Part shown: in pieces, positions 2,415-59,886 of the stretch
Numbering within the stretch: the first letter of the stretch is position 1
Layout of the letters: every line of letters starts with the position of its first letter
Origin: Alphaproteobacteria bacterium
Lineage (GTDB): Bacteria; Pseudomonadota; Alphaproteobacteria; RF32; CAG-239
DNA: 64,000 nt
Direction of reading: 5' to 3'
Assembly (NCBI GenBank): GCA_015062285.1
Contig: SUUY01000002.1
Coordinates: forward strand, 62,001 to 126,000
The notes under the pieces: generated by a model
Databases searched by the model: none
What the model was told of the DNA's origin: nothing
The model's input: the letters and a program-made list of their open reading frames with translations, nothing else
Program-made: the position numbers and the translations under genes

Positions 2415-3740
2415 ATGCAATATTCTTATCGAAAAATTTTGGAGATTTCCCTGCCTATTTTGTTGGGTATGATTATCCACCAAATGGTAGGAATGACTGA
2501 TACCGCATTTTTGGGAAGAGTTGGAGCTATTGAGCTTGGAGCGTCTGCTTTGGCAGGTGTTTTTTATATAATGGTGTTTATGCTTGCGGCCGGATTTGGA
2601 ATTGGTGTGCAGATAATTATTTCTCGTCGAAACGGTGAAAAAAATTTTGAAAAAATCGGTGGTGTTGTATACCAGGGAATCAGTTTTTTATTTATTGCAG
2701 CAATTGTTATTATAGCAGCAACTTTTCTTTTTTCCCCCTATATTTTAAAACAAATAATATCATCAGATGAAGTTTTTCGAGAAACCCTTGTTTATCTTGA
2801 TGTGCGAATTTATGGATTATTATTTGCTTTTCCGATGGTAATATTCAGATCGTTTTTTATTGGCATTACACAAACAAAAGTTTTGACATATAATGCCTTT
2901 ATTATCTTAGGAATAAATATTGTTTTAGACTATCTTTTGATTTTTGGAAAATTTGGTTTTCCGGAAATGGGAATTGCAGGTGCAGCCTTGGCATCGGTTA
3001 TTGCCGAGTGTTCTGCTACTGTGTTTTTTGTAATTTATATATTACTTAATATAGACTTGAAAAAATATGGTTTCCTGAACTTTATTGTTTATAAAATAAC
3101 AATCCTCAAACAAATTTTGCGATTATCTGTTTGGACGATGTTGCAATATTTTATTTCTATGGCAACTTGGTTTTTATTTTTGATTGCGATAGAAAACTTA
3201 GGAGAAGAATCGCTTGCAATTTCCAATATACTTCGTAACGTTTCCAGTTTTCCGTTTATGATTGTGGCGGCATTGGGTGCAACTGCCAATACCATAACCG
3301 GTAATCTGATTGGCGAAGGGTTAGACTCTGAAGTAAAAAAATCATCTTTGCGAGTAGTTAAACTTACTTATATTGCAGTTCTGGGGTTAAGTGTTATTAT
3401 GTTGGCATTTCCACAAACAATTTGCCGGATATACACCGATGATTTGGAGCTGATTAAAAAAGGACTTGCCGCATATTATGCATCATTTACCACATATATA
3501 ACTTTGGTTCCGGGAATGATATTGCTAAGCGTAATTTCCGGTACAGGCAAAACTAAAGAAGCCATGTATTTAGAAATGGTATCTTTAATAGCATATACTT
3601 TAAATGTCTGGTATGTGGTGATATATTTGCGTGCTGATTTGTATATTTGTTGGACCTGTGAGCATTCTTACAATATTTTGCTAAGTATACTTACATACGT
3701 ATATTTGAAGCGAAACAAATGGTGCTGTCAAATTGTATAA
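2415..3740 (+). CDS. MATE family efflux transporter
   Basis: A 441-residue polytopic membrane protein with about twelve hydrophobic segments in two halves. The N-terminal half has the MATE/MOP signature (GMTDTAFLGRVGAIELGASALA, then a long hydrophobic run with GFGIGVQIIISRRNGE). The family exports cationic drugs or metabolites across the inner membrane in exchange for Na+ or H+. ATG 2415 is preferred over an upstream GTG at 2397 because AGAGG (2404-2408) lies six bases before it. Substrate cannot be told from sequence. The C-terminus ends shortly after the last helix. It stands alone between a divergent methyltransferase and a convergent tRNA. Confidence 0.88.
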   Translation: MQYSYRKILEISLPILLGMIIHQMVGMTDTAFLGRVGAIELGASALAGVFYIMVFMLAAGFGIGVQIIISRRNGEKNFEKIGGVVYQGISFLFIAAIVIIAATFLFSPYILKQIISSDEVFRETLVYLDVRIYGLLFAFPMVIFRSFFIGITQTKVLTYNAFIILGINIVLDYLLIFGKFGFPEMGIAGAALASVIAECSATVFFVIYILLNIDLKKYGFLNFIVYKITILKQILRLSVWTMLQYFISMATWFLFLIAIENLGEESLAISNILRNVSSFPFMIVAALGATANTITGNLIGEGLDSEVKKSSLRVVKLTYIAVLGLSVIMLAFPQTICRIYTDDLELIKKGLAAYYASFTTYITLVPGMILLSVISGTGKTKEAMYLEMVSLIAYTLNVWYVVIYLRADLYICWTCEHSYNILLSILTYVYLKRNKWCCQIV

Positions 3741-13509: not shown

Positions 13510-15435
13510 ATGGTTGCGATTAAATTGCCTGATGGCAGTGTGATGGAAATGGAGAGCGGTGTCTGCGGTTTAGACATTGCAAATAAGATTAGTGCCGGCT
13601 TGGCTAAAGCCGCTTTGGCTGTTAAAGTAAATGAGACATTAATGGATTTGACTACCCCCATCACTACCGACGCAACCGTGACTATTATCACCGGTAAAGA
13701 TGCCGAAGGGTTACATATAATCCGCCACTCATGTTCTCATATTATGGCTGAAGCTGTTAAAGAGCTATGGCCTAATGTGCAGGTCACAATCGGCCCTGCT
13801 ATTGATAATGGTTTTTATTATGACTTTGCTCGCAAAGAACCTTTTACAACAGAAGACTTTGCTAAAATTGAAGCAAAAATGCACGAAATCGTAAAACGTG
13901 ATGAAAAAGTTACTCGCAAGGTTATGCCTCGCGCAGAAGCAATTAAGTTCTTCAAAGATATGGGCGAAAACTACAAAGCTGAAATTATTGAGGATTTACC
14001 GGAAAGCGAAACAATTTCACTTTACACCCAAGGTAATTTTACTGATTTGTGTCGTGGTCCTCATGTTCCTTCAACCGGAAAAGTAGGCGATGCTTTTAAG
14101 TTGATGAAAGTTGCCGGAGCTTATTGGCGTGGAGATTCAACAAAAGAAATGTTGCAAAGAATTTATGCTACTGCTTGGGCAAACAAGAAAGATTTAGACG
14201 CATATCTGCAAATGTTGGAAGAAGCAGCTAAAAGAGACCACCGCAAACTTGGAAGAGAAATGGACTTGTTCCATTTTGAACCGGAATATGCTCCCGGTGC
14301 AGTATTTTGGCACGATAAGGGGTATAAAGTTTATCGCAGACTCATTGAATATATGCGTAAACGTCAAGAAAATAACGGTTATGTAGAAATTTGCACTCCG
14401 CAAGTTATGGATAGATGCTTGTGGGAAACTTCAGGTCACTGGGAAAAATATGGAGCTCATAACTATTCCGGTCAAACCGAAGATAATAAGTGGTTTTGCA
14501 TAAAGCCAATGAACTGCCCCGGTGGTTTGTTGGTATATAAACAAGGAATCCGTTCATATCGTGATCTTCCTTTACGAATGGCTGAATTTGGTAAAGTTAA
14601 CCGTTATGAAGCTTCAGGATCATTGATGGGATTGATGCGTGTGCGTGAATTTACTCAAGATGATGCTCATATCTTCTGCACACCGGAACAAATGGAAGAT
14701 GAATGTATCACGACTTTGAAGCTGATTTTGGATATTTATAAGGACTTTGGATTTGATACTATCAAAATTTATCTTTCAACTCGTCCGGAAAAGAGAATCG
14801 GCTCTGATGAAATTTGGGACTTGTGTGAAAAATCTTTGGCTAATGCCCTGACCAATCATGGTTATGAATTTGAAATCAATGAGGGTGAAGGTGCTTTCTA
14901 TGGTCCGAAATTAGAGTTCATATTAAAAGATGCAATCGGTCGTGAATGGCAATGCGGAACAATTCAGGTTGATATGAACCTCCCTCAACGCTTTGACATC
15001 AGCTATATTGGTGAAGACGGCGAAAAACACCAACCGGTAATGTTGCACCGTGCTTTGTTTGGGTCAATTGAACGTTTCTTGGGGATATTGATTGAACACC
15101 ATGCCGGAAAATTGCCATTGTGGTTATCGCCCGAACAAGTTGTGGTAGCTCCGATTGTTAGCGAATTTAATGACTATGCCGAAGAAGTGGCTGCCAAATT
15201 ACGTGCGGCAGGAATCTATGCCAAAACCGATTTACGTAATGAAAAAATTAACTACAAAGTACGTGAACACTCTGTAAGTAAGATTCCGGTGATTGCTGTT
15301 GTTGGAGCAAAAGAAAAAGAAAATCGCACTGTTACATTGCGTCGTTTAGGATCTGAAAAACAAGAATTAATGAAACTTGATGACTTTATAACCGCAATGG
15401 TACAGGAATCGCAAATGCCGAGTATCAGTCATTAG
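13510..15435 (+). CDS. thrS: Threonyl-tRNA synthetase
   Basis: A full-length 641-residue enzyme. Domains in order: TGS (about 1-60), editing domain with the four zinc-type residues (HSCSH near 73 and LCRGPH near 180), class II catalytic core (about 240-530) and anticodon-binding domain. The catalytic zinc ligands are present: Cys in MNCPG, His in QDDAHIF and His in MLHRALFGS. The motif 2 Arg-Glu pair is in NRYE. The residue after MNCPG, usually His (MNCPGH), reads Gly here. An AAAGGATATTTA site precedes the ATG. A strong terminator follows. Confidence 0.97.
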   Translation: MVAIKLPDGSVMEMESGVCGLDIANKISAGLAKAALAVKVNETLMDLTTPITTDATVTIITGKDAEGLHIIRHSCSHIMAEAVKELWPNVQVTIGPAIDNGFYYDFARKEPFTTEDFAKIEAKMHEIVKRDEKVTRKVMPRAEAIKFFKDMGENYKAEIIEDLPESETISLYTQGNFTDLCRGPHVPSTGKVGDAFKLMKVAGAYWRGDSTKEMLQRIYATAWANKKDLDAYLQMLEEAAKRDHRKLGREMDLFHFEPEYAPGAVFWHDKGYKVYRRLIEYMRKRQENNGYVEICTPQVMDRCLWETSGHWEKYGAHNYSGQTEDNKWFCIKPMNCPGGLLVYKQGIRSYRDLPLRMAEFGKVNRYEASGSLMGLMRVREFTQDDAHIFCTPEQMEDECITTLKLILDIYKDFGFDTIKIYLSTRPEKRIGSDEIWDLCEKSLANALTNHGYEFEINEGEGAFYGPKLEFILKDAIGREWQCGTIQVDMNLPQRFDISYIGEDGEKHQPVMLHRALFGSIERFLGILIEHHAGKLPLWLSPEQVVVAPIVSEFNDYAEEVAAKLRAAGIYAKTDLRNEKINYKVREHSVSKIPVIAVVGAKEKENRTVTLRRLGSEKQELMKLDDFITAMVQESQMPSISH

Positions 15436-15456: not shown

Positions 15457-15482
15457 AGGGGGCGATTGCCCCCCTTTTTTTG
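15457..15482 (+). terminator. Intrinsic terminator of thrS
   Basis: GGGGGC (15458-15463) pairs with GCCCCC (15468-15473) around a GATT loop and is followed by seven or more T residues. Confidence 0.9.
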
Positions 15483-15498
15483 ATTATACAAAATATTC

Positions 15499-15526
15499 TT
15501 GCTTTATATTTGTTTTTTGCTAAAGT
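15499..15526 (+). promoter_or_regulatory. Promoter-like sequence before the structured RNA
   Basis: TTGCTT (15499-15504) and TAAAGT (15521-15526) with a 16-base spacer lie after the thrS terminator and just before the paired region at 15533. The -10 is imperfect, so this is tentative. Confidence 0.35.
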
Positions 15527-15532
15527 TATCGT

Positions 15533-15770
15533 GTACCTTAGATGGTACGGAGCTGTCGAAAGCTCTTATTGCACACGGTGTTAGGATATAACATCGACAT
15601 ATTGTTATCTGCAATTATAGATGACAATAAATATATCCCCGATTCATAGCAATATGGTCGGGGAGCTTTTAGCGTATGTTCAGAGGTTATTCTCAAAGGC
15701 TAAAAGAGTCATTTTGTGCAATATGATTTTCGAACTCTCCGACCACCTTAAGTTTTTAAGGTGGTTTTTT
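15533..15770 (+). ncRNA. Candidate structured non-coding RNA, class not recognised
   Basis: About 240 bases with no open frame, bounded by the thrS terminator and its own terminator. The two ends pair over a long distance: TGGT-a-CGGAG (15543-15552) with CTCCGACCA (15737-15745), TCGAAA (15556-15561) with TTTCGA (15728-15733), and TATTGCACA (15567-15575) with TGTGCAATA (15715-15723). Inside lie hairpins GTGTTA/TAACAT (15579-15594), ATTGTTATCT/AGATGACAAT (15601-15628), CCCCGA/TCGGGG (15637-15663) and CTTTTAGC/GCTAAAAG (15666-15705). The set looks like a multibranched RNA closed by an irregular stem. It lacks tmRNA tag, RNase P and SRP signatures; a divergent 6S-type RNA is possible but unproven. 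It could instead be a leader of the next gene, but the terminator argues for a separate transcript. Confidence 0.55.
15743..15770 (+). terminator. Intrinsic terminator of the structured RNA
   Basis: Perfect 9-bp stem CCACCTTAA (15743-15751) with TTAAGGTGG (15756-15764), loop GTTT, then six T. Its 5' arm competes with the long-range closing stem for bases 15743-15745. Confidence 0.88.
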
Positions 15771-15795
15771 ATAATAACTTAAGGAGAAAGAAATC

Positions 15796-58196: not shown

Positions 58197-59886
58197 AGTC
58201 TGTATTTTTCTCCGTTGAATCTTCCAGTATGACATCAGGTACTGTTTCAATTAATGAAATTTCGCCACTTTCTTCTTTATCAAAAACAGGATGATGATTA
58301 TCTTCTTCGTTTTTATGTGGAGTTAATTTACTAATATTTTCAGTGTCTGTTGATGAGAACACCTCAACACGGTTGCGCCCGTTCTGTTTTGCTTGGTATA
58401 AAGCTTCATCTGCTGTTTTTATTAAAATTTCCACATTATCAGAAACAACCGACGAAGAAACTCCTATCGAAACCGTGAAATGTATTATATCTCCATTATC
58501 AGATAATACTTCTATTTCAGAAATGCTTTGACGCAAACGTTCTGCCACGATAGCACTTTGTTGCACATCAACCCCCGGCAAAAATACGACAAATTCCTCG
58601 CCACCATAACGAGCCACAATGTCTTTATCCCTTAATGCTTTTTCGGTTGTTAATGCTAGTTCTATAAGAACTTTATCGCCAATCTTATGACCATATGCAT
58701 CGTTGATATTTTTGAAGTTATCCGCATCAATCATCATAATTGTATAAGGTATATTTGCTTCTTGCAATTGTAATATTTGTTTTGACACTTCATCTTCAAA
58801 ATAACGACGATTGTACAAAGTGGTCAGAGGATCTTTGGAGGCCTGATTTTTAAGCAGATTTTCTCTGTTTTTTTGCGACGTGATATCTTGAAATGCGGCA
58901 TACATGGCAACATCATAATTATAATCTATTATGTTTACGGAGGCCAGCAACCAGAATGGCGCATCTGAAATTGATGTTTTAATTAAAACCTCAAAATCTT
59001 GTACTTCTTTTTCTCTTTCTATACGTTCAGCCAGAAGTTTTCTGTTTTCTTGATCTACAAAAAAATCTTTTATTCGATATCTTTCGATTTCTTTTGCATT
59101 AATTCCGAAAAGTTTAAGCGCATTATTGTTTGCCAATATTATTTTATCATCACTCAAACGCGAAATAATAATCGGAAACGGAGATAGCCTGATTATGTCT
59201 TCTATTTTCTTATGATATTTTTTAATATCCGCTTCTTGTTTTTCAACTTGCATTTGCAGTATATTACTTTTGATAATTAAAAAAGATAATGACAATATTG
59301 TATAACAAATAAAACCTAAAAACCAGTTTGTCGTAACAATGTCAAAACACTTCAGAATCATATAAAGTGATATTGCACTCATCAAAAATGCAGATATTAT
59401 AAAACCGTTTTTATGCTTTCCTGATGTTTCTGACCACAGACCTATTGACAAACAAACTGAACCGGCAATCGGAAATATTTGTCGCATGTTATTTATTATA
59501 TCACCATCAGGAAACCAATATACAAACAGCCCTATGGCTAGCAACCCTAATACTCCTAAGCTGATATTAACCCATGTATACGCCCCACCTGCAATTAGAA
59601 AATGCATTGATGCCATAACTAAAAATAACATTGCAAATAAAGAAAATGACAATTCCCAAAACACATAGAAGTTTATACTTTCGCCGGAATTATACGCATT
59701 GGTAGCAAAATACGCTACGGCATTTGCTCCAAAATCGAATATCACCCCAATAAAGATCAACCATAATGGTGCAAAAAACTTTTCTTGTTGTGAGGTAGCA
59801 TACAAACACGAAAAGAATAGTGTAAGCAATGAAAAAATCGTTGTAAACAAATATATTTGTTGTGAAAATATATCAATATTTCCCAT
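58186..59886 (-). CDS. Membrane diguanylate cyclase with PAS domain
   Basis: A 566-residue protein. About seven transmembrane helices (residues about 10-210) form a sensor region; a PAS domain follows (about 228-345, KIEDIIRLSPFPIIISRLSDDKI), then the GGDEF domain (about 350-510) with DPLTTLYNRRYFED, DADNFKNINDAYGH and the active-site ARYGGEEF. The product-binding I-site RxxD (RDKD) lies five residues before it, so feedback inhibition is likely. An acidic tail of 60 residues ends the protein. It makes c-di-GMP. GAGGAATATTAA precedes the ATG. It overlaps the RNA methyltransferase gene by 11 bases. Confidence 0.9.
   Translation of the reverse strand: MGNIDIFSQQIYLFTTIFSLLTLFFSCLYATSQQEKFFAPLWLIFIGVIFDFGANAVAYFATNAYNSGESINFYVFWELSFSLFAMLFLVMASMHFLIAGGAYTWVNISLGVLGLLAIGLFVYWFPDGDIINNMRQIFPIAGSVCLSIGLWSETSGKHKNGFIISAFLMSAISLYMILKCFDIVTTNWFLGFICYTILSLSFLIIKSNILQMQVEKQEADIKKYHKKIEDIIRLSPFPIIISRLSDDKIILANNNALKLFGINAKEIERYRIKDFFVDQENRKLLAERIEREKEVQDFEVLIKTSISDAPFWLLASVNIIDYNYDVAMYAAFQDITSQKNRENLLKNQASKDPLTTLYNRRYFEDEVSKQILQLQEANIPYTIMMIDADNFKNINDAYGHKIGDKVLIELALTTEKALRDKDIVARYGGEEFVVFLPGVDVQQSAIVAERLRQSISEIEVLSDNGDIIHFTVSIGVSSSVVSDNVEILIKTADEALYQAKQNGRNRVEVFSSTDTENISKLTPHKNEEDNHHPVFDKEESGEISLIETVPDVILEDSTEKNTDYEM

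Follow-up and report, generated by a model that had tools for sequence, protein, structure and literature searches.

The window, that is, the whole 64,000-nucleotide stretch of DNA that was analysed, contains a gap between a 641-aa open reading frame and a small gene for a predicted lipoprotein in which an initial annotation had noticed a structured RNA of unknown class, possibly a lineage-specific housekeeping or regulatory RNA. This locus raises the question of whether the RNA is real, how widely it occurs, and whether it acts as a free transcript or controls the gene that follows it.

The locus and its features

The 641-aa frame upstream of the RNA, which we take to be thrS from the initial annotation and from the protein sequence, ends in its own intrinsic terminator, which suggests that the RNA is a unit of its own (Table 1). 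The gap had been described as free of open frames, a fair description given that only 52- and 53-codon ORFs overlap the RNA, and the promoter-like sequence and strong terminator reported for it are present in the sequence (15499-15526 and 15741-15770). The TAAAGT of the promoter-like site ends 6 nt 5' of the first stem, and a TANNNT motif ending 4-10 nt 5' of the first hairpin was found in 63 of 153 other copies of the RNA. This motif alone is unspecific, occurring at the same frequency 29-35 nt upstream; a -35 element at a distance of 16-18 nt accompanied it in 25 of those 63 copies, compared with 2 at control spacing. The 135-aa product of the downstream gene, called a lipoprotein here from its lipobox-like N-terminus, gave zero matches in a Pfam search up to E 10. 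Elsewhere in the window, a GGDEF domain is encoded at 58369-58839 on the minus strand, inside a 566-aa open frame; the genome has three.

Table 1. Features of the RNA locus (positions in the window).
Feature	Position	Strand	Basis or remark
thrS, gene 5' of the RNA	13510-15435	+	641-aa ORF
Intrinsic terminator of thrS	15458-15481	+	GGGGGC-GATT-GCCCCC, then C and T7
Promoter-like site	15499-15526	+	TTGCTT 15499-15504, 16-nt spacer, TAAAGT 15521-15526
Structured RNA, candidate leader	15533-15770	+	Fold z = -9.98; model R1, 221 bits; homologues
P1, 5' hairpin GUACC/GGUAC	15533-15548	+	MFE; swapped-partner test
P2 hairpin GAGCU/AGCUC, loop is PK1 5' strand	15550-15565	+	4/5 pairs change two-sidedly
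PK1 5' strand UCGAA, partner 15729-15733	15556-15560	+	5/5 pairs with two-sided changes, 100% paired
PK2 5' strand (J2/3) UAUUGCACA, partner 15715-15723	15567-15575	+	8/9 pairs with two-sided changes
P3 hairpin CGGUGUUA/UAACAUCG	15576-15596	+	4/7 pairs with two-sided changes
Variable-length hairpin	15600-15629	+	MFE; copies differ in its length
P4 hairpin	15636-15664	+	UCCCCGAU 15636-15643 with GUCGGGGA 15657-15664
P5 5' strand GGUCGGGGAG	15656-15665	+	Near-invariant
P5a, conserved internal loop GUAUGUUCA (15674-15682)/AAAG (15695-15698)	15666-15706	+	
PK2 3' strand (P6 loop)	15715-15723	+	Swapped-partner test, covariation
PK1 3' strand UUCGA	15729-15733	+	Swapped-partner test, covariation
P5 3' strand CUCUCCGACC	15735-15744	+	Last four bases double as terminator base
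Intrinsic terminator of the RNA	15741-15770	+	Sequence
Shine-Dalgarno (SD) AAGGAG	15781-15786	+	Sequence; ten bases after the terminator
Small predicted lipoprotein gene, 135 aa	15796-16203	+	ATG at 15796

Fold and covariation of the RNA

The stretch 15533-15770 had a minimum free energy (MFE) of -96.6 kcal/mol, compared with -50.6 +/- 4.6 kcal/mol for 200 dinucleotide shuffles (z = -9.98), 0 of which folded as well, and the four internal hairpins that had been proposed were all in the MFE structure. Relatives were first sought by a DNA search over 58 genomes, the own genome and related ones, which matched 33 of them, many with several copies. Alignment A1 and the model R1 were made from 31 sequences, comprising 30 of these finds and one fecal 'phage' scaffold; one locus (L027), whose 5' part failed to align, was excluded. 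The R1 score of the window RNA, 221 bits, is high by construction.

The structure tested on A1 comprised P2, P3, P5, P5a, P5b and two pseudoknots. Pairing was found in 95.7% of 1509 cells, and sliding the partners by 1-3 columns as a control lowered this to 36-44%. Two-sided changes occurred in 33 of 49 pairs, a measure on which 0 of 500 shuffles were as good, whereas a fifth measure, covering further pair types, was unremarkable (66 of 500). Together with the fold statistics, this strong covariation shows that the structured RNA downstream of thrS is real. Since R1 had been built with the long-range pairs included, the pairings were examined again in an alignment-free test, in which the best pairing of each copy's own two strands was compared with that of swapped partners. 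For this, 276 model matches were reduced to 206 distinct parsed copies and to 187 after removal of near-duplicates (169 from R1 and 18 from R2, a second model described below), 183 of them with a recognised P2. In these 183 copies the values for own and swapped partners were 6.32 and 3.65 +/- 0.07 for PK1 and 7.88 and 4.59 +/- 0.06 for PK2. Copies obtained from a pattern search only (n=62) gave 6.19 vs 3.67 for PK1 and 7.56 vs 4.62 for PK2, and those obtained from BLAST only (n=28) gave 6.48 vs 3.98 and 9.14 vs 4.74; both pseudoknots hold in sets collected without a structure model.

Two of the long-range pairings that had been drawn between the ends of the RNA were thereby upheld, 15556-15560 with 15729-15733 (UCGAA/UUCGA) and 15567-15575 with 15715-15723, both of which covary strongly. 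The pairing of the first arm of P1 with the 3' arm of the terminator, also considered as an antitermination pairing, was not, own and swapped partners both scoring 3.61 (n=109, terminator class); the other P1 arm with the 5' arm of the terminator was slightly raised (4.38 vs 4.10 +/- 0.06). The P1 arms with each other gave 4.93 vs 4.32 +/- 0.09 in the same 109 copies. The P5a stem showed two-sided changes in 8/8 pairs, with loop bases mostly at least 90% conserved. P4 and P5 compete for one G-strand. P5 is nearly invariant, one pair changing from A-U to U-A in 7/187 copies and to G-C in 2/187, and P4 was 98.8% paired in A1 with so little variation that covariation barely tests it. In GC-rich members an extra hairpin with an invariant core, P7, follows.

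A tRNA-like 3' end (UUCGAAC...CCACC) was rejected, since its bases covary with those of the P2 loop. In the GC-rich members (alignments A4 and A5), ACG is invariant in the P1 loop and GRCGNACC is conserved in the P7 loop. The Y/R match between the two loops suggested a kissing contact, which was weak in the swapped-partner test (4.05 vs 3.80 +/- 0.07, n=42) and was not adopted.

Comparison with known RNA families

An Rfam scan of the window at gathering thresholds returned two tRNAs and nothing over the RNA, and Rfam 15 at gathering thresholds gave zero families over the RNA in 36 distant loci. Three copies were searched against Rfam up to E 10, and besides chance matches only RF02221, the family of sRNA-Xcc1, came up, in one of them at 17 bits; PyrR, SraG and the other five Rfam matches near the RNA had E values of at least 0.3 and were taken as chance. 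The view that no Rfam family names the class therefore stands at threshold in covariance-model searches: the RNA, which has dozens of near-invariant bases, is absent from Rfam save for a short distant piece. The literature covered, outside which lay most subscription papers and preprints, contained no description of the RNA apart from sRNA-Xcc1. Two outcomes had been named beforehand as speaking against the RNA, a lack of conservation or covariation in relatives and a significant match to a known Rfam family; homologues and compensatory changes were found and no family matched, so the RNA survived both.

Housekeeping RNAs (6S, tmRNA, RNase P and SRP RNA) gave no Rfam match, and ARAGORN found no tmRNA. 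R1 matched 33 of the 35 genomes of the genus with 1-9 copies each, unlike a single-copy housekeeping RNA, and that suggestion was dropped. One of the 33 (G003) was included on a weak R1 match alone (E 0.0033), and in two genus genomes (G009 and G021) R1 found no copy.

Distribution of relatives

R1 matched 25 of 289 genomes and 19 of 223 genera in a sample of the class. A 27-position core pattern, run on GTDB species genomes, gave at least 112 matching stretches; the 80 listed include Rhizobium, Agrobacterium, Shinella, Devosia, Methylobacterium, Sphingomonadales and Roseovarius, as well as Acidobacteria, for example Granulicella rosea. The pattern also matched 6 viral contigs. All 86 pattern-derived loci were matched by R1, 84 of them at full length (L096 was partial and L111 was cut at its end). 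R2, built from 33 GC-rich members (alignment A5), matched 51 of 385 genomes and 41 of 276 genera in the class, and 25 of 299 genomes in a sample of the phylum, 10 of which lay outside the class and were found by partial matches. Genome counts from both models are lower bounds because the filters were strict. Relatives of the copy in Agrobacterium vitis were found on 246 plasmid records, 207 of them typed as conjugative, and S. meliloti pSymA is among the rhizobial plasmids that carry a relative. Contrary to what had been suggested, the RNA is not lineage-specific, being found in many alphaproteobacterial genera, in Acidobacteria, on rhizobial plasmids and, by the partial matches, in other Pseudomonadota.

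Tandem copies on the same strand, 101-274 nt apart, were seen at L260 (653-843 and 983-1172), L299 (684-867 and 1142-1332) and L300 (696-871 and 973-1153), an arrangement known for some riboswitches. A phage origin based on the record MT835859.1 was not accepted, the record being unverified and unannotated; the RNA there precedes an apparently XRE-like gene.

That the RNA is a mobile or recombination element, such as an integron-cassette-like site or a selfish RNA travelling with accessory genes, appears highly improbable. Its multiple copies, the many conjugative plasmids, its varied neighbours and its patchy occurrence in the class would suit such an element, and one study describes the most widespread integron cassette of Xanthomonas in its collection as containing symE with sRNA-Xcc1 upstream (PMC12444791). 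Against this, the covariation argues for function as an RNA, and RNA and lipoprotein gene occur together elsewhere: tblastn, run over the already collected RNA-bearing loci only, found homologues of the lipoprotein at such loci in 8 other genus genomes, once with thrS again upstream of the RNA (L031).

Genes downstream of the RNA

The position of the RNA relative to genes was examined in 161 non-redundant copies with enough flanking sequence, using crude ORF calls. In 152 of them an ORF in the same direction, 80 aa or longer, started no more than 240 nt from the P5 3' strand, at a median distance of 59 nt, 9 copies being without one; in the divergent mirror control an ORF was found in 73/161 (45%), and with a cut-off of 150 aa the counts were 110 co-directional vs 38 control. 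This placement points to a cis-regulatory leader. In copies with a terminator, U-tract and start codon lay a median of 24 nt apart, and at most 45 nt in 75 of the 96 copies with an ORF (109 in total), which leaves little room for a second promoter. As for what is expected of a riboswitch, location in a 5' UTR is indicated by position (the 152/161 copies, and the promoter-like site, SD and ATG), and a structured core is conserved across distant species.

A family scan of the 136 downstream proteins that were 100 aa or longer gave, among the 25 of 83 Pfam families listed, HTH_3 (15), glycosyltransferase family 2 (8), OMP beta-barrel (7), RgpF (5) and GGDEF (2). By Pfam and NCBIfam the downstream genes are mixed, without one common pathway, which is unusual for a metabolite riboswitch and counts against reading the RNA as a leader. 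A metabolite riboswitch proper, which might sense a c-di-GMP-like second messenger in a putative pocket formed by the P5a internal loop, seems improbable to us. It would agree with strongly conserved loop bases, with the many envelope, polysaccharide and regulator genes in the downstream set and with GGDEF proteins in 35/35 genus genomes; however, besides the mixed regulon, G009 and G021 have GGDEF proteins yet no RNA was found there by R1, and GGDEF is common in any case, being present in 8/14 control genomes.

A putative switch between P5, terminator and SD

We lean towards reading the RNA as a cis-acting leader, an attenuator of the lipoprotein gene, within a large pseudoknotted superfamily that includes sRNA-Xcc1. 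Structure, conservation and position enter this reading as observations, and from them we infer common descent and regulation. Judging from the promoter-like site, the transcript would start near 15533. The 5' half (P1-P2-J2/3-P3-P4) would be made first and the 3' half (P5-P5a-P6) after it, and the halves would dock through the two pseudoknots, one between the P2 loop and the linker that precedes CUCUCC, the other between J2/3 and the P6 loop. The strand that closes P5, CUCYCCGAYC, has several possible partners; in the MFE structure of the window RNA its CUCC is paired with GGAG of the P2 5' arm and not in P5. We propose CUCUCCGACC as the decision point: when paired with GGUCGGGGAG in full P5, it could not also supply the base of the terminator, whereas with GGUCGGGG kept in P4 the terminator would form and the gene would stay off. 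Anything that stabilised P5, be it a ligand in the GUAUGUYCA/UAAAG loop, a protein or another RNA, would turn the gene on.

The terminator was present in 104/128 copies from loci below 50% GC and in 5/59 from GC-richer loci. Its stem began at GACC of the P5 3' strand in 88 of the 109 terminator-bearing copies. Among the P7-bearing copies, 21/42 had a downstream stretch of at least 6 nt complementary to CUCCCCGA, the other half (21/42) lacking it; among control ORF starts the figure was 18/289 (Fisher 1.2e-11). The stretch is SD-like, and a start codon (ATG, GTG or TTG) stood 5-9 nt past it in 20 of these 21 copies; in this half of the GC-rich relatives, P5 would free the SD from the complementary strand. 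Terminator overlap and SD complementarity taken together imply that formation of P5 would favour expression in both layouts.

With nested folding, which leaves pseudoknots outside the model, the full-P5 state of the 60 of 109 terminator-class copies folded was less stable than the MFE structure by a median of 18 kcal/mol, and P5 pairs were absent from the MFE structure of all 60; the P5 state would need the pseudoknots. In the window RNA, full P5 breaks only 4 of the 11 terminator pairs. As modelled, nested energies give no support for a balanced switch between P5 and the terminator.

Relation to sRNA-Xcc1

A 2011 paper in RNA Biology reportedly describes sRNA-Xcc1 as a trans-acting sRNA, going by its title as cited elsewhere. 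In five relatives of the window RNA, the RF02221 model aligned at its full length of 87 positions to the 3' half, with a best score of 36.6 bits (E 0.0086); the relatives scored 17-37 bits, all below the gathering threshold of 53 bits. In sRNA-Xcc1 and the relatives alike, the 3' half runs in the order P5, P5a, P6 hairpin, linker and P5 3' strand, the order of P5, P5a and P6 being the same in alignments A1, A4 and A9, and sRNA-Xcc1 has an AUACAA...GGGGAA internal loop region in P5a of the same layout. Many RF02221 loci likewise carry a 5' half (P2-like hairpin, J2/3 and P3), which lies outside the Rfam model. RF02221 matched 54 of the 299 phylum genomes, 35 above threshold. From 69 RF02221-type loci, 65 were retained (L352 and L361 had wrong offsets, L392 and L400 short flanks), and 45 of these, with the 5' half included, were used to build a third model, R3 (alignment A9).

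Of 67 sources with RF02221 loci, 10 had an R2 match to the RNA in place, the R2 matches at L374 and one of two at L360 lying away from the RF02221 match of the locus. R3 matched in place in 17/65 sources at E <=0.01, that is, at 16 distinct places (L082 and L222 are one place), 15 of them in the class, an 18th match (L099) being off target. The window RNA itself was matched neither by RF02221 up to E 10 nor by R3 up to E 0.1. Another copy in the same genome, its third, which the R1 genome scan had missed (L412 706-859, on G000:C10), scored 32.4 bits with RF02221, 40.1 with R1 and 21.0 with R3, and precedes another lipoprotein-like ORF. Cross-detection is reciprocal though sub-threshold, and we take the relation to sRNA-Xcc1 to be distant homology rather than membership in RF02221.

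In the 65 RF02221-type loci, the PK1 strand paired with the upstream segment at 7.84 vs 5.78 for swapped partners (z 14.7) and the P6 loop at 6.37 vs 5.59 (z 6.5). Both strands also fitted the region of the ribosome-binding site (RBS) of the next gene, the P6 loop at 6.65 vs 5.40 (z 11.2) and the PK1 strand at 6.35 vs 5.68 (z 5.8), whereas the middle-region controls had z values of 0.2 and 3.0, of which the second is not negligible. Values of at least 6 at the RBS were reached by both strands in 38/65 loci; with swapped partners this happened in 8.5 loci on average and, over 1000 shuffles, in no more than 17. The clearest RBSs read [P2 loop copy]-GGAG-[J2/3 copy]-ATG, for example at L357, L358, L368 and L390.

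These fits bear on a rather unlikely reading, in which the RNA acts in trans as a small RNA, either as a free transcript of about 240 nt or as a processed 3' half like sRNA-Xcc1. Its P6 loop and PK1 strand would then, with equally little probability in our estimate, pair with the RBSs of mRNAs, the downstream gene being a neighbour or an autoregulated target. The promoter-like site, the strong terminator and the several copies in most genus genomes agree with this, as does sRNA-Xcc1 itself, whose transcript measured 88 nt by RACE and about 100 nt on Northern blots and is described as a discrete sRNA (PMC2996969). For Xylella, one study lists seven sRNA-Xcc1 homologues in one strain, five of them clustered, that are visible in RNA (PMC12189769). 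In the alphaproteobacterial sets, however, P6 against the RBS was flat (6.49 vs 6.32 in the terminator class, n=108; 6.20 vs 6.18 in the P7 class, n=42; 6.46 vs 6.33 in the rest, n=34) and the PK1 strand was slightly raised in the terminator class only (5.73 vs 5.37 +/- 0.09), so that mimicry of the RBS was not seen there save for this small PK1 excess. The 152/161 copies directly before a co-directional ORF, with a short gap past the terminator, likewise speak for the leader rather than for a free sRNA.

Several genes behind the RF02221-type RNAs of L343-L372 look like prophage antirepressors or regulators of the BRO, KilA-N and Rha kinds. A conserved U-run, UUUUUUGUGCC, follows P3 at about columns 71-107 of A9, and the 5' half may end in a terminator of its own there. 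At L252, a Type II hammerhead ribozyme (2890-2954, minus strand; 66.4 bits, gathering 37) lies in one locus with an RF02221-type RNA.

Comparison with known systems

GEMM-I and GEMM-II c-di-GMP riboswitches resemble this RNA in their mixed envelope and regulator genes, their several copies and their tandems, and differ from it in that Rfam scans of the window and of relatives were without a match. In ON riboswitches of the pbuE type, a strand of a core helix overlaps the terminator, as we propose for this RNA, so that a folded core would promote read-through; the two are unlike in size, in pseudoknots and in gene set, and there is no Rfam match.

The closest comparison is with sRNA-Xcc1, whose Rfam model covers 87 nt only; the window RNA adds a terminator before its gene, and its class is without a clear guide-strand copy at the RBS, unlike the RF02221-type set. 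Tentatively, the two may be branches of one uncatalogued, multi-phylum class of gene-control RNAs, built of a 3' domain, which carries two guide strands, and a 5' domain, which mimics their target and holds the 3' domain. The target in the sRNA-Xcc1 branch would be the RBS of the RNA's own gene, where copies of both 5' segments flank the SD, the architecture in Alphaproteobacteria would instead act through a terminator or a strand complementary to the SD after rewiring, and sRNA-Xcc1 would be the 3' domain of a leader and not a stand-alone sRNA. For annotators, the RNA is a new candidate control element before surface-structure genes and regulators, and its occurrence in tractable soil bacteria makes the switching hypothesis testable. 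The comparison also calls for a fresh look at sRNA-Xcc1 as a possible piece of a larger leader.
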